A stretch of DNA of 39,854 nucleotides from Myxococcales bacterium (GCA_019637115.1 JAHBWH010000064.1:1-39854), one strand, 5' to 3'; shown: positions 30,985-39,740, counted from the stretch's first letter. Notes: generated by a model not told the origin, from the sequence alone. Program-made: numbers and translations.

Positions 30985-31397
30985 ATGCCCCTACGAGGCT
31001 CGTCGGAGACCTCGTCTGCCACGAACTCACCATCGACCAGCGTGCCCGTCGTACGCGCCCCCGAAGGGTCGACACGGACCAAGCGCCCCTCGTCGTCGAC
31101 GCCGTATCTCGGTCCGGGCACGGCGGTGATGTGGGCCAGCGCGGCGCTTCGATCGGTGGACCGAGCGAGCTCCTCGAGGACCCGGGTGACACGGGCGCGC
31201 GGAGAGCCGACCGAGGCAACGGCCCCGCCCCCGAGCCGCTTTAGGGCCAAGAGCTCGCGGTGATCGAGGAGCTTCTCGACCGCCCGACCGAGGGTGGCCC
31301 AGTGCTCGAGCTGCGCCGTCATCGACCGGCTCGCGGCGGCCGATTCCTCGCGCGCGGCTGAGGCGAGCTCATCGGAGACTTTGATCGGCTTTGCCAT
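30981..31397 (-). CDS. ParD-like antitoxin
   Basis: A 138-residue protein. Its N-terminal half (MAKPIKVSDELASAAREES, then SMTAQLEHWATLGRAVEKLL) matches the ParD-like antitoxin family (PF11903-type), which has a ribbon-helix-helix-like DNA-binding fold. The C-terminal half (about 75-138) is acidic and would be expected to hold the toxin. It is followed by a zeta-type toxin gene with a 4-nt overlap, the usual antitoxin-first order. It likely represses its own promoter, which should lie in the 139-bp gap upstream (31398-31536); no operator is evident by eye. The antitoxin is intact while the toxin frame is broken. Confidence 0.8.
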   Translation of the reverse strand: MAKPIKVSDELASAAREESAAASRSMTAQLEHWATLGRAVEKLLDHRELLALKRLGGGAVASVGSPRARVTRVLEELARSTDRSAALAHITAVPGPRYGVDDEGRLVRVDPSGARTTGTLVDGEFVADEVSDEPRRGM

Positions 31398-31536: not shown

Positions 31537-32682
31537 TCACCGGTGGGCGCCGAAGAAGGCCGTGATCTCGCTCGCGCTGACGCGGAGCCACTCGTGATCG
31601 GCGTCGCGATCGACGACGACTCGAGGGGTGACGCCTGCGCGCGCGAGCTCGGCCTCGTAGAGGCGCATCGTGCCGATGGGGACGACGCCGTCACGCTCGC
31701 CGTGGAGGAAGAGCGTCGGCGGGTGGTCGCCAGCGAGCGTCGGCACCGCGCAGAAGGCGCCCCCGCAGGTCATGTAGGACGCAGACGCGATCGCGATCGC
31801 GCGGACGCGGCCTGGGTAGGCGAGCGCGACGCGCGAGCTCATGTAGCCACCGCTCGAGAGGCCCGTGGCGAAGAGCCGGTCGCCGTCGAGTGGGCCGAGG
31901 TCGCCGCGATCGATCGCGTCGAAGAGCGCGCGCATGAGCGCGTGGTCCGGCGCGCGCGGCCAGTCGTCGCGCCAAGGCGCGAGGTTCGTGTCCCACGCGC
32001 CGTCGCGCGCGAGCGGCGTGAGGACCGCGAAGCCCGCGTCGAGGAGCGCGCGGACGACGTCGGTCTGCCAGTAGGCGCCGAACGCGCCGAGGCGCTCGCC
32101 GCGCCAGACGCTGCGGCCCTCCACGAACGCGCCGTGGAAGAGGAGCACCGCGGGCCAACCCGCCGCGGGCGCGGCGCCGAGCGGCGTCTGGAAGTAGAGC
32201 GTGCGGGAGAAGCCGCCCGCGTCGAGCGTCGCCGTCTCCTGCGCGCAGGTGATGCGCGCCGCGCTGACGTCGCAGCGGGATCCGCCGGGGCCGGCGTCGT
32301 CTCCGGTGCTCGCGTCGGCGTCGAGCGCGTCGCCGTCGAGCGCGTCGGCGTCCAGCACGTCGCCGTCGACGTCCACGCGGGCACCGTCTGCTCGTAGGGC
32401 GCCGTCCGTGAGGGCGCCGCCGTCTCGCGCTTCGGTCGACCCGTCGTGGGCACCTGCGTCCTCGGGCAGCGTCGTGCCGCACGCGAAGGCGAGCGAGGCC
32501 GAGAGTCGAAGCGCGCGGACGACGAGCGAGGCCGAAAACCGAAGCTCGCGCCGCGGCGTCCCGCCGCGCGAGGCCACTCCGCCTCGCGGCGAGCCACCAC
32601 GCGAGGTCGCTCCACCACGCGACGTCACTCCACGACGCGACGTCACTCCACGACGGGAGCTCACTCCGCCGCGCGAGCTCAC
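31537..32682 (-). CDS. PHB depolymerase-like esterase lipoprotein
   Basis: An alpha/beta hydrolase resembling polyhydroxybutyrate depolymerase/LpqC-type secreted esterases. The catalytic part has LLFHGAFVEG (oxyanion), GLSSGGYMSS with the nucleophile Ser, HGERDGVVP with the Asp and DADHEWLR with the His, plus a CGGAFC pair. A lipoprotein signal (LRLSASLAFACG) and an Asp/Ala linker precede it. GTG 32682 is given as the start because it overlaps the PhaC stop as GTGA, matching the operon style; this puts an 18-bp in-frame repeat in the N-terminus. GTG 32577 would give a more normal 346-residue lipoprotein. It could release hydroxy acids from polyesters, or act on other esters. Last gene of the seven-gene run. 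Confidence 0.8.
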   Translation of the reverse strand: MSSRGGVSSRRGVTSRRGVTSRGGATSRGGSPRGGVASRGGTPRRELRFSASLVVRALRLSASLAFACGTTLPEDAGAHDGSTEARDGGALTDGALRADGARVDVDGDVLDADALDGDALDADASTGDDAGPGGSRCDVSAARITCAQETATLDAGGFSRTLYFQTPLGAAPAAGWPAVLLFHGAFVEGRSVWRGERLGAFGAYWQTDVVRALLDAGFAVLTPLARDGAWDTNLAPWRDDWPRAPDHALMRALFDAIDRGDLGPLDGDRLFATGLSSGGYMSSRVALAYPGRVRAIAIASASYMTCGGAFCAVPTLAGDHPPTLFLHGERDGVVPIGTMRLYEAELARAGVTPRVVVDRDADHEWLRVSASEITAFFGAHR

Positions 32683-32695
32683 TCCGCCGCCTCGA
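32570..32695. repeat. 18-bp minisatellite at the PhaC/depolymerase-like junction
   Basis: About six to seven units of an 18-bp repeat (for example CGACGTCACTCCACGACG on the plus strand; GGAGTGA on the minus). Units toward 32690 are GAGCTCACTCCGCCG variants and overlap the PhaC stop codon. Most units carry a GTG in frame with the depolymerase-like gene, and many form GTGA, so the array looks like a repeated copy of the stop/start junction. Confidence 0.85.
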
Positions 32696-33761
32696 CCGCG
32701 CGCAGGGCGCGATCCCGCGACGCCCACCAAGCGTCGAGCTTCGGCCAGAGCCGATCCTTCGCGCTCTCGCTGACGACCGCCGCCACGTGCCCGCCGGGCA
32801 GGTGCGTATGCGTCACGTCGTCGCTGCCCGTCCGCTCGACGAGCGGCAGCGCGCTCTCCTTGGGCACGATGTAGTCGTGCTCGAAGCTCAGGACGTGCAC
32901 GGGGCACCGGATCTGATCGAGGCGTGCGGCGTGCCCACGCAGCGCGAGCGTCCCGTGGACGAGCCGATCCTCCCGGTAGAACGACCGGATCCACGTCCGG
33001 AAGATCTCGCCCGGCAGGTCGACGTTGTCGTTCGCCCAGCGCTCCTTCGCCATGAACCCGTCGAGGAAGGCGCCGTCGAAGCCGCGGCCCGTGACGAGCT
33101 TGTCCGCGAGGTACGCGAGCTTGCTCGGCGTGAGCGTGGGGCGGAGCATGAGGAAGCTCGCCTGCAAGAGCGGCCACGGCACGTTGCCGAAGGCGTCGAC
33201 CAGGCTGTCCGGGTCGAAGGCCGGGTTGCGGGTCCAGGTCGCGAGGATGCCGTCGTCCGCGAAGGCGACGGGAGCGGCGAGCGTGGTCAGGGTAGCGACG
33301 CGCGGGCGCGGCTCCCACGTGGGCGCGCGCTCGGCGGCGGCGTGGATCACCGCGAGCGTCCCGCCCATGCAATAGCCGAGCACGTGCGCGTCCGGCGCGC
33401 CGCTCGCCTCGCACGCTCGGCGAAGCGCGCGACCGAGGTAGCGACCGACGACGTCGTCGAAGGTCAGCAGGCGGTCCTCGGCGCCAGGCTTGCCCCAGTC
33501 GAGCACGAAGACGTCCCAGCCGCGCTCGGCGAGCCACTCGACGAGGCTCTTGCCCGGCAGGAGATCGAGCACGTACCAGCGGTTGATCATGGAGGGCACG
33601 AGCACGAGCGGGCGCTGGTGGGTCGGCCGCGCGCCGCTCGGCGCCGTGAAGCGCAAGAGGCGCCATTTGTTCTCGGCGTGCACCACGACGTGCGGCGTGC
33701 GTCCGACCGCGGGCGCGGAGTGTCGCACGAGCTTCACGAGGTTCGAGAGCAGGCCCATCAT
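32679..33761 (-). CDS. phaC: Polyhydroxyalkanoate synthase PhaC (class III-like)
   Basis: A 360-residue PHA synthase, the length of class III/IV PhaC. It polymerises hydroxyacyl-CoA on the surface of polyester granules. The catalytic Cys is in GYCMGGTLAV, replacing the Ser of lipases; Asp is in FEHDYIVP and His in PGGHVAAVV. RPLVLVPSMINRWYVLDL and VFVLDWGKPG are typical. Its ATG overlaps the synthetase stop by 4 nt (ATGA). A short PhaE-like gene lies two genes upstream. No phaA or phaB is present, so the monomer should come from the adjacent acyl-CoA synthetase or from fatty-acid oxidation elsewhere. Confidence 0.92.
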   Translation of the reverse strand: MMGLLSNLVKLVRHSAPAVGRTPHVVVHAENKWRLLRFTAPSGARPTHQRPLVLVPSMINRWYVLDLLPGKSLVEWLAERGWDVFVLDWGKPGAEDRLLTFDDVVGRYLGRALRRACEASGAPDAHVLGYCMGGTLAVIHAAAERAPTWEPRPRVATLTTLAAPVAFADDGILATWTRNPAFDPDSLVDAFGNVPWPLLQASFLMLRPTLTPSKLAYLADKLVTGRGFDGAFLDGFMAKERWANDNVDLPGEIFRTWIRSFYREDRLVHGTLALRGHAARLDQIRCPVHVLSFEHDYIVPKESALPLVERTGSDDVTHTHLPGGHVAAVVSESAKDRLWPKLDAWWASRDRALRAVEAAE

Positions 33762-35503
33762 CGCCTCCCGTAGAGCGCCTCGAGCGCCGCGCCATGACGC
33801 TCGTAGACCGCCTTGCGCTTCACCTTCAGGGTCGGCGTGAGCAGGCCCCCTTCGACCGTCAGGGGCTCGTCGATCACGGCGATGGCCTTGATCGTCTCGT
33901 AGCTCGCGAGCTCCGCGTTCACCTGTTCGACGCGCCTCCAGAGCATCGCGCGCACCGCCTCGGGGTCGGCGTCGCCGCCGCGCTTGGCGAGCGCCTCGCG
34001 CACGGCCGCGTGGTTCGGCCAGACGCCCGCGACGAGGAACTTCTCGCCATCCCCGTAGACCACGACGTGCTCGAAGAAGGGATCGTCGCGGAAGCGAACC
34101 TCGATGTTCGCCGGCGCGACGTTCTTGCCGCCCGCCGTCACGAGGATGTCCTTCTTGCGGTCGACGATCTGCAAGAAGCCGTCGTCGGTCCAGCGCCCCA
34201 CGTCGCCGGTCTTGAGCCAGCCGTCCTCGGTGAAGACCTCCTGGGTGGCCTTCGGATCCTTGTGGTAGCCGGAGAAGACGCTCGGGCCCCTCGCGAGGAT
34301 CTCGCCGTCCTCGGCGAGGCGGAGCTGGACCGAGGGGAAGGGCCTGCCGACGCTGTCGAAGCGGAAGGCGTCGGGGCGGTTCATCGTGAGCGTCGGCGAC
34401 GCCTCCGTGAGCCCGTAGCCCTCGACGATGAGGAGGCCCGCCTCGTGGAAGAGCTCCTTGACCTCGCGCTTGAGGCCCGCGCCGCCGCTCAGACAGAAAC
34501 GGAGCGAGCCGCCCGTGAGCTCGTGGAGCTTCGCGATCTGCTTGCTGCGCTCCTCGCTCGACGCGAGCGCGAGCGAGGCGAGCTTGTCCCAATAGCTCGG
34601 CACGCTCATGAACACCGAGGGGCGCACGAGCGGCAGCTCGGCGAGCGCCTGGCGCGGGTCGGAGAGGTAGGTGACCCAGCCGAGCTGGTTGCCGATGCCC
34701 GCCTCGCCGAAGCCGAAGATGTGGCTCATCGGCAGCCAGAGCACGTCGACCATGCCCTCGTCGAGGAGCGGCGCGAGGACCTCGAACCAATCGCGTCCGT
34801 TCACGCCCACGTTCCGGTGCGTCAACGGCACGCCCTTCGGTCGGCCGCTCGTCCCGCTCGTGTAGAGCATCACGCCGGGTTGGTCGAGCGAGACGGCGGC
34901 CAGCGTGCGCTCGAACGCGCTCGGATCTTCGCGGTGACGCGCGGCGCCGAGGCTCCGCGCGCGCGACCAGGTCACGAAGCGCCGGTCGAGCTCTTGCGAC
35001 GTCGGGAGCGCGGCCGCCCCGGCCGCGCCGCGTGCGCGCGCGTCCGCCGCCGCGGCGTGCGGGTCGAGGGCGTCGTCGAGGAGCACGACGCGGCGGACGC
35101 CGTCGAGCGAGGGCCAGACCTCGAGCAGGCGCGCGAGCAGCTCGGGGGTGTCGACGAAGACGATCTTGGCGTCGCTGTGCTCGACGACGTAGCCCGCCTG
35201 GTCGGCGGTGCTCGAGCCGTAGATCGGCACCATCACGCCGCCCGCCGCTTGGATCGCGAGCGCGGCGCTCATCCACTCGACGCGGTTGGGCGCGAAGACG
35301 CAGGCGCGGTCGCCGGACTTCAGCTCGGTGCCGAGGTAGAGCGCGACGTCGCGGATCTGATCGGCGAAGGCCTGCCACGTCACGGCCCGCCAGTCGTCGC
35401 CGTCGTGCACCATGAAGCGCGGCCGCGTCCGCCGCTCGGGGAGGTGATCGAAGACGATCTGCGGCGCGATGCGCAGCTCGCTCGTGTAGCGCGCGACGTC
35501 CAT
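33758..35503 (-). CDS. Long-chain acyl-CoA synthetase (AMP-forming)
   Basis: A 581-residue adenylate-forming enzyme of the ANL superfamily, FadD15-like. Motifs: MLYTSGTSGRPKGVPLTHRN (P-loop), VEGYGLTEASPTLT (A5), WLKTGDVGRW (A7), IVDRKKDILVTAGGKNVAP (A8) and a C-terminal LKVKRKAVYE with the catalytic Lys. It activates a carboxylic acid to acyl-AMP and then acyl-CoA. Sitting between a PhaE-like gene (1-nt overlap, TGATG) and phaC (4-nt overlap), it most likely supplies hydroxyacyl-CoA or related monomers to the synthase; that is inference, since substrate cannot be read from the sequence. No signal peptide. Confidence 0.92.
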   Translation of the reverse strand: MDVARYTSELRIAPQIVFDHLPERRTRPRFMVHDGDDWRAVTWQAFADQIRDVALYLGTELKSGDRACVFAPNRVEWMSAALAIQAAGGVMVPIYGSSTADQAGYVVEHSDAKIVFVDTPELLARLLEVWPSLDGVRRVVLLDDALDPHAAAADARARGAAGAAALPTSQELDRRFVTWSRARSLGAARHREDPSAFERTLAAVSLDQPGVMLYTSGTSGRPKGVPLTHRNVGVNGRDWFEVLAPLLDEGMVDVLWLPMSHIFGFGEAGIGNQLGWVTYLSDPRQALAELPLVRPSVFMSVPSYWDKLASLALASSEERSKQIAKLHELTGGSLRFCLSGGAGLKREVKELFHEAGLLIVEGYGLTEASPTLTMNRPDAFRFDSVGRPFPSVQLRLAEDGEILARGPSVFSGYHKDPKATQEVFTEDGWLKTGDVGRWTDDGFLQIVDRKKDILVTAGGKNVAPANIEVRFRDDPFFEHVVVYGDGEKFLVAGVWPNHAAVREALAKRGGDADPEAVRAMLWRRVEQVNAELASYETIKAIAVIDEPLTVEGGLLTPTLKVKRKAVYERHGAALEALYGRR

Positions 35504-35826
35504 CACCGCCCTCCTTCGTCGCGGCGCGCCGCCTCGGCCTCGGCGAGCCGATCCTCGAGGTCGAGGAGCTGCGACTGCACCTCGTGGAGCGCGTGGAGCA
35601 CGCGCTCCTGATCGTCGCGCGTCGAGAGGCCGAGGCCGCCCCACCACAGCGACATGAGCTGTCGCTGCTGCGCTTGGAGCTTGGTCATGCTCGCAAGCAT
35701 CGACCCCGCGGGCCCGAGCAGCGCCGGTGACTTCATCCAAGTGTCGAGCAGGCTCGTGCTCGCCTGGTCCCAGGCGTCGAAGCCCTTCTTCCACATGCTC
35801 CAACCGAGCTCGAACGGGTTCTTCAT
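35503..35826 (-). CDS. Short PhaE/phasin-like PHA synthase subunit
   Basis: A 107-residue helical protein beginning MKNPFELGWSMWKKGFDAWD. A good ribosome-binding site (AGGAG at 35833-35837, six bases before the ATG) sets the start. It is amphipathic with many Gln, Leu and Trp, and ends in a charged coiled-coil-like stretch (RVLHALHEVQSQLLDLEDRL). PhaE of class III synthases and phasins share such features (PF09712-like), but typical PhaE is about 300 residues. Immediate upstream position to an acyl-CoA ligase and phaC supports a role as a synthase partner. Alternatively it is a granule phasin. No catalytic motif. Confidence 0.65.
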   Translation of the reverse strand: MKNPFELGWSMWKKGFDAWDQASTSLLDTWMKSPALLGPAGSMLASMTKLQAQQRQLMSLWWGGLGLSTRDDQERVLHALHEVQSQLLDLEDRLAEAEAARRDEGGR

Positions 35827-35861
35827 CTCATGCTCCTGTGCTTCGCGCGTGGAGGTCGTGA

Positions 35862-36830
35862 TCACTCGAGGGAGAGCCGGCGCAGCTCCGCGGCGGTCGT
35901 GAAGTCGGCGGCGGCCTCGCCGAGCCGCGAGGTGGCGCGCGCGACCTCTCCGAAGCACTCGAAGAGGAAGCTCGTCTGCCTCACGGTGGTCGCCGCGCCC
36001 GCAGCGGGCTCGATGGTGACGCGCACGTCGACGCGGTGCGCCTGCGTGAAGGCCAGATCCCGCAGCTCGAGGCGGCCTGCGGCCACCGCGCGCACCTCGT
36101 AGACGTCGCGGCCGGCGTAGGGCAGGCCGCGGAAGGTCCCGCCGCGGACCTCGCCGACGCTCACGTGCTCGGCGCCCGGCGCGATCGGGAAGCGGTAGAG
36201 CGCGACCGGCGCGCCGTAGACGAGCAGGGTCCGGCCTTCGGGAGGATCCATGGCCGCGCTCGCGGTGCCGAGCAGCGAGAGCGCGCGCTCGTCGTGGTGG
36301 TACACGCCGAGGGTGCGCGCGCCGGCGTCGGTGGGCGCGACGAAGATCGTGCCTGGCAGCGTCGCGACGAGGGCGGCGAAGTCATCGGCGAACCAATGGT
36401 CGGCGAGCGCGCTCGCCGTGAGGCGCGCGAGCTGGTCGTCGGCGTAGTCGGTCGCGAAGTCCCAGACGCGGCGCTCGTCGACGATCGCGCCGACGAGGTT
36501 CACGGCGCGCTCGACGCCGGCTGGGCTGACGAGGAGGCTCTGCGCGACGCCGAGCGCGGGCGCGAGCTCGTGGGCGTCGATGCGTCCGTCGAGGTTCGGC
36601 AGGCACTCGAGCACGCCCGCGTCGCCGGGATCGTAGGGCTCGCGGTCGGGGAAGGTGCGGTTGTCACCGCACGCGGCGAAGGCGAGCGCGCAGAGCGCCA
36701 GCAGGAGCGCGCGGGCGCCGAGGTCGTGCCGCGTGCCGACGTCCTGGCGCGAGTCGCCGCGGTCGTGCGCGCGGTGCGAGGGCGTGGGGGCGAAGCGGGA
36801 CGTCGGAGCGTGTTCGTCGGGACGGGGCAT
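35862..36830 (-). CDS. Lipoprotein of unknown function in the PHA operon
   Basis: A 322-residue predicted lipoprotein. The hydrophobic segment and lipobox (ALLLALCALAFAACGDN) start at about residue 38, so the N-region is long; a later start may be used. The mature part is beta-rich, has one cysteine pair (about 76 and 300), and resembles no family I know. It begins 7 bases after the stop of the outer-membrane barrel gene and ends 35 bases before the PhaE-like gene, firmly within the operon. It may be a periplasmic or outer-membrane partner of the barrel. Confidence 0.7.
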   Translation of the reverse strand: MPRPDEHAPTSRFAPTPSHRAHDRGDSRQDVGTRHDLGARALLLALCALAFAACGDNRTFPDREPYDPGDAGVLECLPNLDGRIDAHELAPALGVAQSLLVSPAGVERAVNLVGAIVDERRVWDFATDYADDQLARLTASALADHWFADDFAALVATLPGTIFVAPTDAGARTLGVYHHDERALSLLGTASAAMDPPEGRTLLVYGAPVALYRFPIAPGAEHVSVGEVRGGTFRGLPYAGRDVYEVRAVAAGRLELRDLAFTQAHRVDVRVTIEPAAGAATTVRQTSFLFECFGEVARATSRLGEAAADFTTAAELRRLSLE

Positions 36831-36837
36831 GGGCTCC

Positions 36838-38754
36838 TCAATAATGAAAGCCGAGGCGCAGGCGGAGGAGCTGCGCGGGGCGGGCGCCGAGCCCGAGGAC
36901 GGGGTTGTCGAAGCCAGCGAAGGGGAAGAGCACGGCGTACTCGAGCGAGGCGAGGAAGCCTTCGCGCGTCGCGTAGACGATCGTCGGGTCCACCTCGAGG
37001 CCGAGCGGACGCTCGCCGCCGGGTGTGCTCGTCGGCTGCACCGCGAAGCTCGCGATCGCTGCGACGTGCGCCTCGAGCCGCCCCGGGCCCAGCTCGGCGA
37101 GGCGTACGCGCGCGTGCGGGCGCACGTAGACGGCGTCGGTGACGGTGCCGATGATCTCGCGGAAGAGGATGCGGTCGATCCGGTAGTCCGAGTGGAAGCG
37201 GAAGTTGTCGACGCGGTTGTCGAACGGGGGGCGCGCCTGCGGTCCGTCGAGGTCGCCGGGGCGCGGCGCGGGCGCGTTCGGTCCGCGCGCGTTGCGTCCG
37301 AGCTGCGCGCCGAAGCCCGGCGAGGGATCGCCGCTCGCGAAGCCCGCGTCGAGACCGACGCTCCACGTGCTGCGCCCCTCGCCGTGGCCCGGACCGAAGT
37401 CGGTCTCGAGGGCGGCGCCGATCTGGTCGGACCTCAGCGGCTGCCGCAGCTCGACGCCCGGGACGAGCGAGGGCTGCTCGATGCGCGCGCGGAGATAGGC
37501 GGCCTCGAGCTCGATGCGACCGAAGGGGAGCGTGACCTTGAGCCAACCGTCGACGGCGGTGGCGCGGAAGCCGCGGTGCATCGACTGCGCGCGGTCGATC
37601 GCGACGGGGCTCGCGAGCGGGAGGTAGCTCGCCGGGACGTCGCCGTGCTGCCAGCGGTGCGAGACGTAGGCGCCGTATTCGACGCTCGTGCGACCGGCGC
37701 GGGCGCGCCGGCGGCGCGCGAGGTCGGTGTGGAAGTCGAGGACCGCGAAGGTGAAGGTGCGGACGTTGTCCCACGGATCGAGCGCGACGACGCGGCCCGG
37801 GGCGTTGCGCTGCGTGGTGGGACCGATCGACGTCCAGTCGAAGGCGACGGCCCAGACGTGCCCGAGGAAGGGCGAGACGAAGGCGACGCGATCCGCGGCG
37901 TCGCCGCTGTCGCAGTCCGCGCAGTCGCCGCCGTTGGCGAGCATGCCGAGGCCCCAATGGTTGCCCATACGGCCGACCGCCAGCATGCCGAAGGGCGTGA
38001 GGGCCTCGGCGTAGGCGCGGCGGATGACGAAGGGTTGGTCGGCGGGGCGCTGGCTGACCGCGACGCTCGGGACGCCCTCGGGCTGCGAGCCGAGCGAGAG
38101 GTTGTCGAGCGCGTCGAGGCGGACACGCACCGCCATGCCCGCGCGCGGGACGAGGAGCGCGACGTCGGTGCGCAGGCGCATGTCGGCGTGGCTGAGCCAC
38201 TGCGCGCTCGGGTCGGAGAGCGGCACCGGGAAGAGCGGATCGCCGCTCGGCGTCGGCCCTCGGTCGAGGTCGAGGTTGTAGAGGCCCTCGGCGCGCGCGC
38301 GGAGCGCGCCCGCGAAGACGACCTTGGTCTCGCGCGCGGCCTCGATGTCGAGCCCGATGTCGCGGAAGCCCTGGGCGGCGGCGGGGGACGCGGCGAGGAG
38401 GAGCAACGCGAGGAGCGCTCCGAAGGGGACCGGGTGTTGGTTCGGGGCTTGAGCGCGGTTCTCGTTGAGGACCGGGTGCGTGTTCGTGTGCGGCCTTTGC
38501 GGGTTGTTCGTGCGCGCGCACGTGACCGTGACCGTGTTCGTGTCTGTGTCCGTGTCCGTGTTCGTGTTCGTGTGCGGCCTTTGCGCGTTGTTCGCGCACG
38601 TGGACGTGGACGTGGACGTGGACGTGGACGTGGACGTGCACGTGGACGTGCACGTGGACGTCGTGGACGTGGACGTGGACGACGTGGACGTGGACGTGGA
38701 CGTGCACGTGGACGTGCACGTGGACGTGGACGTGGACTCGGGGGGGGTCACCAT
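36838..38754 (-). CDS. TIGR04551-like outer-membrane beta-barrel
   Basis: A predicted outer-membrane protein. After a signal segment (GALLALLLLAASPAAAQG) the mature part carries the hallmarks of the myxobacterial TIGR04551 family: GALRARAEGLYNLDLDRG, HADMRLRTDVALLV, VRLDALDNLSLGSQPEG, AYAEALTPFGMLAVGRMGNH and GGDCADCDSGDAADRVAFVS. It ends in aromatic FHY, as barrels do. The only in-frame start near is ATG 38754, which overlaps the preceding hydrolase stop by 7 nt; it puts about 110 residues of hexamer-encoded Thr/Ser repeats before the signal peptide, which is unusual. The true start may lie within the repeat at a non-ATG codon. Role: probably a porin or channel; inference. Confidence 0.8.
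   Translation of the reverse strand: MVTPPESTSTSTCTSTCTSTSTSTSSTSTSTTSTCTSTCTSTSTSTSTSTSTCANNAQRPHTNTNTDTDTDTNTVTVTCARTNNPQRPHTNTHPVLNENRAQAPNQHPVPFGALLALLLLAASPAAAQGFRDIGLDIEAARETKVVFAGALRARAEGLYNLDLDRGPTPSGDPLFPVPLSDPSAQWLSHADMRLRTDVALLVPRAGMAVRVRLDALDNLSLGSQPEGVPSVAVSQRPADQPFVIRRAYAEALTPFGMLAVGRMGNHWGLGMLANGGDCADCDSGDAADRVAFVSPFLGHVWAVAFDWTSIGPTTQRNAPGRVVALDPWDNVRTFTFAVLDFHTDLARRRRARAGRTSVEYGAYVSHRWQHGDVPASYLPLASPVAIDRAQSMHRGFRATAVDGWLKVTLPFGRIELEAAYLRARIEQPSLVPGVELRQPLRSDQIGAALETDFGPGHGEGRSTWSVGLDAGFASGDPSPGFGAQLGRNARGPNAPAPRPGDLDGPQARPPFDNRVDNFRFHSDYRIDRILFREIIGTVTDAVYVRPHARVRLAELGPGRLEAHVAAIASFAVQPTSTPGGERPLGLEVDPTIVYATREGFLASLEYAVLFPFAGFDNPVLGLGARPAQLLRLRLGFHY
38481..38740. repeat. In-frame hexamer array with an 84-bp higher-order duplication
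   Basis: GTGGAC/GTGCAC and GTGTCC/GTGTTC hexamers fill this stretch. A 30-base block (38481-38510) recurs at 38565-38594 with one mismatch, 84 bases apart (14 hexamers). All steps are multiples of six, so the frame of the barrel gene stays open and encodes Thr-Ser, Thr-Asn, Thr-Asp dipeptides. On the other strand it reads Val-Asp/Val-His. Confidence 0.95.
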
Positions 38755-39740
38755 GGCGCGCCTCCCTCGGTCGTCGCGGGCTCGGGCGGGCTCGGCGTGG
38801 GCTCGAGGGGCGCGGGGGCCTCTGGGGTGGCGGGGGCCGGGGGCTCGAGGAAGGCGACGAGGTCCCGGGTCGAGGGGGTGCGCGCCTCGATCATCGGGAA
38901 GTGCCCGCATTGCGGGTAGACGCGGAGCTCGGCGTTCGGCAGCTCGTTGACGAGGCGCTCGCCGTAGGTGAGCAGCGTGACGGCGTCCTCGCGGCCCCAG
39001 AGCAGGAGGGTCGGCTGCGCGATCTCGCGGTAGCGCGCCGCCTGCGCCTCGTATCGCATCGCGCGCACGGCGGCGAGCGCGGCGGCCGCGGTGCCAGGGC
39101 GCCGGACCTGCTCTTCGACCGTGTCGATCAGCGCCTGCGGGATGAGCTCGGCGTCGTGGAAGGCGAGGGCGATCTTGTCCTCGCTCCGCTCGGTGTAGAA
39201 GACGCCGAAGATCACCTCCCCGAGGCCACGGGCGCGCGCCCAGTGGAAGCTGGTCGGGAGCTGCTCGGGATAGACCCACGCGTCGTAGAGCGCGATGCGC
39301 TCGACGCGCTCGGGGGCCTCGAGGGCCATCGCGAGCGCGACGCTCGAGCCATAGCTGTGCGCGACGACGGCGGCACGCTCGAGCCCCCGGGCCTCCATCA
39401 GCGCGAGCACGAGGCGCGCCTGCTCGTCGGGGCCATAGCCGTGCTCGTCGCTCGGCGGGGGCCGATCGGTGTGGCCGAAGCCCTTGAGATCGAGCGAGAG
39501 GACGCGGAAGCGCTCGCGCAGCGCGGGTCGGACGCCCGCCCAGACGCCGAGGCTGCTCGCGAAGCCGTGAACCAGCACGACCGCGGGCGCGTCCTCGGGT
39601 CCTTCGTCGACGTAGTGGACGCGGGTGCCACGGATCGTCGCGAAGGCGCCGTCCTCGGGTGCGTCGGGGAGGGCGCCGGAGTGGTAAGAGACGCAGCCGG
39701 TCGCGAGCGTGAGGATCGCGGCGATCGCGCGGCGGTCCAC
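38748..39740 (-). CDS. Alpha/beta-hydrolase lipoprotein
   Basis: A 330-residue hydrolase. GTG 39740 is chosen because it opens a compact lipoprotein signal (DRRAIAAILTLATGCVS). The frame remains open upstream through five 18-bp repeats to the window edge, encoding Ser-Asp-Ser-Ala-Thr-Val units. The fold shows VVLVHGFASSLGVW (oxyanion hole), AVVAHSYGSSVA with Ser in a HSYG elbow, LLWGREDAVT with the Asp, and PQCGHFPMIE with the His. It resembles lipase/esterase and epoxide-hydrolase-like enzymes; substrate unknown. A Pro/Glu-rich tail follows. Stop codon overlaps the barrel gene start. First gene of the run within the window. Confidence 0.85.
   Translation of the reverse strand: MDRRAIAAILTLATGCVSYHSGALPDAPEDGAFATIRGTRVHYVDEGPEDAPAVVLVHGFASSLGVWAGVRPALRERFRVLSLDLKGFGHTDRPPPSDEHGYGPDEQARLVLALMEARGLERAAVVAHSYGSSVALAMALEAPERVERIALYDAWVYPEQLPTSFHWARARGLGEVIFGVFYTERSEDKIALAFHDAELIPQALIDTVEEQVRRPGTAAAALAAVRAMRYEAQAARYREIAQPTLLLWGREDAVTLLTYGERLVNELPNAELRVYPQCGHFPMIEARTPSTRDLVAFLEPPAPATPEAPAPLEPTPSPPEPATTEGGAPW

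Follow-up and report, generated by a model that had tools for sequence, protein, structure and literature searches.

Canonical PHA loci of Proteobacteria (phaC/phaE or phaR-phaP-phaC-phaB) share with the Myxococcota locus described here a PhaR-type repressor, a PhaC with a Cys-Asp-His triad, an SDR reductase, a TGC-N3-GCA operator, and a phasin-sized gene after phaR. Unlike those loci, the operon in Myxococcota adds a predicted outer-membrane channel, three predicted surface lipoproteins, and an acyl-CoA ligase, while PhaE is reduced to about 107 aa and the cluster has no thiolase gene. PHA genes in this phylum have already been noted (PMC11821767). The pairing of a PhaC-like domain with an AMP ligase also occurs in the actinobacterial fused PhaC-like/acyl-CoA synthetase (PRK07868), on which the synthase of this locus scored 52.8 bits against a cut-off of 925; here the two are separate proteins, a mini-PhaE is present, and the class III PhaC score is much stronger.

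In polysaccharide utilization loci (Sus-like), surface lipoproteins, a surface hydrolase, and an outer-membrane channel are encoded together under substrate-linked regulation. The same grouping was found in the Myxococcota cluster, with the differences that the TonB-dependent SusC and SusD were not seen, that the substrate would be a polyester, and that the end point is a storage synthase. The PhaZ GK13/Bdellovibrio-type (NF050057) and scl type 1 (NF050058) depolymerases share their family and lipase box with the last gene of the operon, g7. To our knowledge, the known extracellular PHA depolymerases are secreted and encoded apart from the synthase, whereas those described here are apparently lipoproteins with genes beside it.

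The entry of extracellular PHA breakdown products into Gram-negative cells is poorly described, and no outer-membrane route for them was found in the literature searched. Neither a published description of the surface module nor a paper naming TIGR04551 was found in the open-licence literature. The locus was considered to be a variant of PHA loci and of surface nutrient-utilization loci, although it may well prove to be a separate kind of system. The reading favored here, held at slightly better than even confidence, is that the surface half of the Myxococcota PHA locus serves the PhaR-controlled uptake of hydroxyalkanoates (or similar acids), their CoA activation, and their polymerization.

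Gene content of the operon and its divergent arm

The window (the whole stretch of DNA that was analyzed, 39,854 nt, contig C396 of a Myxococcales bacterium) carries seven genes, g1 to g7, on its minus strand (Table 1). The sequence-only reading had described seven co-directional genes, and this was confirmed, with stop/start distances from g1 to g7 of −7, 7, 35, −1, −4, and −4 nt (the fifth becomes −1 nt with the second ATG of g6). The exact starts of g2 and g7 are uncertain because their 5′ ends hold repeat-derived low-complexity sequence. An internal promoter or terminator had been named as a feature that would separate the pha genes from the barrel genes. Scans between position 31000 and the contig end returned no promoter-like sites and terminator-like sites at chance level only, and no PhaR operator above chance was found inside the window operon.

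Table 1 Coordinates of features in the window (contig C396) and on other contigs of the host genome (G000)
Feature	Contig	Position	Strand	Description
Operon g1–g7	C396	31537..39740	-	Seven genes
g1	C396	38748..39740	-	Alpha/beta hydrolase lipoprotein, 330 aa; lipobox Cys16; predicted triad Ser129/Asp252/His280; 7-nt overlap with g2
g2	C396	36838..38754	-	TIGR04551 outer-membrane barrel (predicted); N-terminal ~109 aa from tandem repeat
g3	C396	35862..36830	-	Beta-rich lipoprotein; paralogue of off-window g0
g4	C396	35503..35826	-	Mini-PhaE, 107 aa; similarity confined to the C-terminal part of PhaE
g5	C396	33758..35503	-	AMP-forming acyl-CoA ligase, long-chain/FadD11-like type
g6	C396	32679..33761	-	PhaC-type PHA synthase, class III-like; start 33761 or 33758
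g7	C396	31537..32682	-	Lipoprotein resembling extracellular mcl-PHA depolymerase; lipase box GLSSGG; start uncertain
18-bp tandem repeat (g0/g1 junction)	C396	39765..39854		Contig end; contig C422 opens with the same repeat
Tandem repeat (g1/g2 junction)	C396	38598..38737
Tandem repeat (g6/g7 junction)	C396	32552..32685
ParD-like antitoxin gene	C396	30981..31397	-	PF11903
Zeta-toxin-like P-loop reading frame	C396	30601..30984	-	Follows the ParD-like gene; apparently interrupted by a frame change
Palindromic operator	C422	1356..1370		g0–phaR intergenic region
KASIII-like enzyme and SSF symporter operon	C70	3547..6044 (of locus L175)		Palindromic operator 53 bp upstream
Two tandem TIGR04551 barrels	C146	30842..34436		400 and 466 bits

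The window operon is incomplete because the contig stops in the 18-bp repeat. After the shared repeat, contig C422 adds g0 (minus strand), then phaR, a small phasin-sized gene, and an SDR reductase gene (plus strand), followed by ATP-synthase genes. The same order of g0 and a divergent phaR arm is unbroken in the nearest relative (G008). Based upon the shared repeat and this order, the two contigs likely join at the repeat, and the full operon is most likely g0–g7, divergent from phaR and its neighbors. The earlier picture, in which the usual pha genes were missing from the locus, was not supported, given that the divergent genes just off the contig are phaR, the phasin-sized gene, and one for a FabG/PhaB-like reductase. 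Tandem repeats of 6–33 bp at the g0/g1, g1/g2, and g6/g7 junctions were observed to lengthen the coding ends of exported proteins, and it was the g0/g1 repeat that broke the assembly.

The G008 orthologue of PhaR belongs to PF07879 (PHB_acc_N; 92.7 bits, cut-off 25) and reached 100.5 bits on TIGR01848 against a cut-off of 109.45. No Pfam or NCBIfam match, including to phasins, was obtained for two members of the small gene after phaR; it is called phasin-sized from its position and length alone because a family match is absent. The SDR reductase of locus L018 fell below the PhaB model TIGR01829 (138.5 bits vs. a cut-off of 302.1) and was closer to the FabG-type PRK08217 (264 vs. 298). Across loci, the divergent arm consists of phaR, the phasin-sized gene, often a second PhaC (PhaC-B), and the SDR reductase. 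PhaC-B is distinct from the synthase of the operon; many pha loci of Myxococcota carry it in their divergent arm (L052, L054–L057, L063, L066, L068, and others), and the arm of the host is without it.

For g6, the class III PhaC model TIGR01836 gave 244.5 bits against a cut-off of 365.3, and TIGR01838 gave 153.8 bits. Its catalytic residues (Cys130, Asp295, and His324) are invariant in six homologues, which identifies it as a PhaC, and in pattern searches of loci with its close relatives (PhaC-A, defined below) the G-x-C-x-G-G box was found in 57 of 57, D-x-IVP in 54, and the GH motif in 52. The PhaE model TIGR01834 matched g4 with 20.4 bits (cut-off 154.95) over positions 233–321 of 324; g4 has no relative in the PDB and is kept in 63 non-redundant loci. 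With both scores below the two models that define class III PHA synthases, g6 and g4 are best called a class III-like synthase with a mini-PhaE.

The ligase g5 matched AMP-binding with 209.8 bits and reached no curated cut-off, its closest relatives being FadD11/long-chain ligases and the adenylation domains of carboxylic acid reductases. Because g5 resembles long-chain ligases and falls below every curated cut-off, plain fatty acids are a possible substrate, and prey lipids are the main rival to hydroxy acids. The operon would then scavenge fatty acids or lysolipids of prey membranes, with g1 as a lipase, g5 as a long-chain acyl-CoA synthetase, PHA formed after β-oxidation, and depolymerases as a later lineage-specific addition. 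That g1 is a general α/β hydrolase, and that most clusters have no depolymerase, also fit this alternative, which we regard as unlikely given the barrel, depolymerase, and operator results presented below.

Linkage of the surface module to pha genes and a predicted PhaR operator

PhaC and barrel profiles were searched against 379 Myxococcota genomes, and the close PhaC group (at least 413 bits) was designated PhaC-A. PhaC-A was found in 71 genomes and the barrel subfamily in 79. Among 59 close barrel homologues, 46 had PhaC-A on the same contig, and all 46 pairs were on the same strand with the barrel first and PhaC-A 2.75–4.07 kb downstream, a spacing that leaves room for g3, g4, and g5. Genes for PHA synthesis were located within about 12 kb of the barrel in 72 of 76 testable cases (79 in total, three on contigs too short to tell); the remaining four barrels were unlinked to pha genes, and two of these also lacked the module. 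Profile maps of the loci gave one order in many families, namely the SDR reductase, PhaC-B where present, the phasin-sized gene, and phaR on one strand, and then divergently g0, hydrolase, barrel, g3, mini-PhaE, ligase, and PhaC-A.

In some families, the four surface genes (g0, g1, g2, and g3) were relocated as an intact block within the pha locus, after PhaC-B (L060, L112, L113, L153), the phasin-sized gene (L123), or the SDR gene (L110, L111). Other pha loci with PhaR, PhaE, ligase, and PhaC are without the surface block (L017, L114–L120). In each of six tested genomes with the module, the g0/g3 family had two members and no more, both of them in this cluster; it had none in G199, a seventh genome tested, which lacks the module.

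Chance adjacency of independent pha and surface genes could appeal to the missing and relocated blocks, and synteny showing such independence had been named at the outset as what would speak against a common system. In general the synteny proved to be conserved, yet the block moves and some pha loci lack it. Given that 72 of the 76 testable barrels are pha-linked across many families, that moved blocks stay inside the pha locus, that the operator is shared, and that the genes are co-directional and overlapping, this explanation was judged extremely improbable, and chance adjacency was rejected on the phylum-wide synteny. As read from these sequences, the locus combines a complete set of PHA genes with a surface module, and its layout is phylum-wide in Myxococcota. 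The functional link between surface genes and PHA synthesis proposed in the sequence-only reading was supported by this linkage, by the shared predicted PhaR operator region, and by recurrent depolymerases beside the synthase. The conserved linkage to surface proteins suggests that Myxococcota gather the extracellular building blocks of polyesters and lay them down as reserves.

Four-gene surface modules with no detectable pha genes were observed in L139 and L145/L103, on contigs of 11–18 kb; since pha genes were undetected there, the module in these loci may have another role or regulation.

The expected co-occurrence of TIGR04551 and PhaC held for the barrel subfamily, which is pha-linked; TIGR04551 as a whole is not PHA-specific and was rejected as a general PHA marker. 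Two other full family members of the host lie together in tandem on contig C146, away from the pha genes, and score higher than the pha-linked barrel (Table 1).

PhaR-type regulators bind TGC-N3-GCA, with footprints of TGNTGCN3GCAA for Herbaspirillum PhbF/PhaR and CTGCN3GCAG for Rhodobacter (PMC3206438). All 31 non-redundant regions between g0 and phaR contain this pattern, with a combined 58 sites where dinucleotide shuffles predict 4.5, and a control with spacers of 0 to 9 nt gave no rival to N3, the next best being N6 with 21 sites. In 23 of the 31 regions the operator starts 17–21 nt before a TTGAC box facing g0, and in 6 further regions it lies 40–48 nt after the TTGAC box, near the expected transcription start (counted by eye). 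PhaR of R. eutropha has been reported at the same two places in the phaP promoter (PMC3206438). Where g0 does not adjoin phaR (L111), a perfect operator was located 44 bp upstream of the g0 match start.

In the 8.88 Mb of the host, the stricter palindromic form TGNTGCRNYGCANCA was located at three places: in the g0–phaR region, upstream of an operon encoding a KASIII-like enzyme together with an SSF Na+:solute symporter (both in Table 1), and inside a moaA-like gene, where it was taken as chance. The symporter operon has the same operator 25 bp upstream in G003, and in G115, where the symporter is alone, the operator is 16 bp upstream. In 11 loci, relatives of the SSF symporter were encoded within the cluster or next to it. 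Reversed patterns used as a control gave similar genome-wide counts in several genomes, so the evidence lies in the positions of the operators and not in their raw count. These promoter-positioned sites are those expected of a PhaR regulon, and PhaR control of both arms of the locus is predicted from their shared operator region, as is PhaR binding itself. Autoregulation of PhaR could account for part of the operator signal in this shared intergenic region. Separately, the KASIII-like enzyme might stand in for a PHA thiolase.

Barrel, lipoproteins, and depolymerases

The barrel protein g2 belongs to TIGR04551 (321.7 bits over positions 147–637, cut-off 300). A family model was generated using AlphaFold2 from 33 barrel homologues (pTM 0.79), and its fold matches were AlgE, Campylobacter MOMP, and OprD/Occ channels (Z about 21–25 over ~325–370 residues, at roughly 10% identity). 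From this model, g2 is predicted to be an 18-strand AlgE/OprD/MOMP-like outer-membrane channel. By sequence it stands in a separate family from OprD/Occ and AlgE, with no Pfam family and no significant PDB match; PDB sequence searches with g2 and g3/g0 gave non-significant matches only (oleate hydratase, E 0.26; EF-hand proteins, E 0.23). Inward faces of the strands were set by strand alternation and hydrophobicity rather than by model coordinates. On this basis, 13 inward Arg are conserved in at least 90% of sequences vs. 9 inward Asp/Glu, a predicted positive lumen like those of OprD/Occ and AlgE.

Among the fold matches, Occ channels serve carboxylate import, and AlgE, a top structural match, is an exporter of an anionic polymer. 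The fold of g2 thus suits small anions and is compatible with either direction of transport. FadL, the known fatty-acid channel, is a different, 14-strand barrel, and a predicted 18-strand channel with a charged lumen argues against the scavenging of lipids.

The similarity to AlgE would also fit export or surface deposition. Once stores are full, hydroxy acids or short PHA chains would leave by way of the channel and lipoproteins, or polymer would be laid down on the cell surface. PhaR control would be in line with this, given that the PhaR proteins of other bacteria bind PHA and, in their free form, act as repressors of PHA genes (PMC12542648), so that the module would be switched on with PHA present. 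That the operon also encodes an acid-activating ligase accords with import, and extracellular-type depolymerases have been recruited to the locus. SSF symporters normally import, and their operon here has the same predicted operator. Taken with this contrary evidence, export was rated as quite improbable.

The hydrolase g1 matched PF00561 with 120 bits and has a lipobox, and the catalytic motifs of its family are kept in nearly all loci. No known domain was found in g3 by profile searches. Its model (pLDDT 94) had no Foldseek match with E up to 0.001, and further structural comparison returned only YmcC-like lipoproteins, which were weak (Z 9.8 and below). Surface anchoring of the lipoproteins is predicted from their sequences. 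Two dedicated lipoproteins with this weak similarity alone (Z 9.8), as well as pha loci from which the module is missing, could point to a role other than transport, in surface assembly or linked to granules, such as attachment to prey or to PHA particles or upkeep of the outer membrane during storage, with regulation merely in common. The porin-like channel and a hydrolase with conserved catalytic motifs suggest substrate handling instead, and such a role was considered highly unlikely.

The g7 lipoprotein fell just below the extracellular mcl-PHA depolymerase model NF050057 (259.3 bits vs. a cut-off of 270), a borderline score, and its orthologues in G008 and L016 reached 266.8 and 303.4 bits. 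Depolymerases were tallied from the matches listed in PhaC-A genomes for two model families. Among these matches, 7 of 78 PHA depolymerases of extracellular type lay within 6 kb of PhaC-A vs. 0.11 expected; the associated p-values take account of neither kinship nor matches outside the list and are only indicative. The seven represent about four lineages (mcl in G000/G008/G003, mcl in G084, scl type 1 in G033, and scl type 1 in G199/G346), and an eighth case in G340 (L059) is a weaker scl-type protein (110 bits vs. a cut-off of 150). The in-cluster depolymerases inspected have a lipoprotein-like hydrophobic N-terminal stretch ending in A/G-C (scored by eye; an automatic rule caught part of them).

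Two operators lie just upstream of the depolymerase in G199 and two about 120–190 bp before the match in G346. At 12 free-standing depolymerase loci (L127–L138), no PhaR-type site was found except a partial one 11 bp before the match in L134, and since these loci are without comparable sites, PhaR control of depolymerases is not general. The depolymerase-like lipoprotein that had been proposed as part of the system is present in the host, but a depolymerase accompanies only a minority of clusters. Both the enrichment of depolymerases beside the synthase and the predicted PhaR operator of the module, a PHA-sensor site, count against lipid scavenging.

A possible route from extracellular polyester to storage

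Bdellovibrio, also a predator, degrades prey PHA with the same enzyme family, leaving monomers, dimers, and trimers outside (PMC4834554), so that extracellular hydroxy-acid and oligomer substrates exist. From the gene content, linkage, and operator sites observed in the sequences, we infer a route in which the four-gene module (g0, g3, g1, and g2) works with the g4/g5/g6 synthase set. Outside polyester or oligomers, most plausibly PHA of lysed prey or dead cells, would be cut at the cell surface by a g7-type depolymerase where present, with g1 acting on oligomers. Anionic hydroxy acids may then pass the outer membrane via g2, helped by g0 and g3, and would enter the cell probably via the SSF Na+ symporter, whose operon has the same PhaR operator. 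The ligase g5 would form the CoA thioester, which PhaC (g6) and the mini-PhaE (g4) would polymerize. Once polymer is there, PhaR would turn on uptake along with storage.

The broader proposal, to which we give just short of an even chance, is a Myxococcota-wide polyester scavenging-to-storage system in which surface depolymerase and hydrolase lipoproteins, an arginine-lined outer-membrane channel with two lipoproteins dedicated to it, a Na+ symporter, a hydroxyacyl-CoA ligase, and a PHA synthase would all be switched by PhaR as a granule-sensing repressor. Polymer that is scavenged would thereby induce the proteins that take it up and store it. Myxococcota are known as predators and are common in soil and activated sludge, and the locus offers candidates for every uptake-to-storage step along with a predicted control site that these have in common. 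It also points to a likely role for the uncharacterized TIGR04551 barrel subfamily and for a lipoprotein family without known domains. If the proposal is true, predators could convert the reserve polymer of their prey directly into their own, and the proteins could be useful in bioplastic degradation and upcycling.

Within the family of the host, PhaC-A was observed in 6 of 34 genomes, all of which were at least 6.4 Mb in size, and genomes under 6 Mb were without it.
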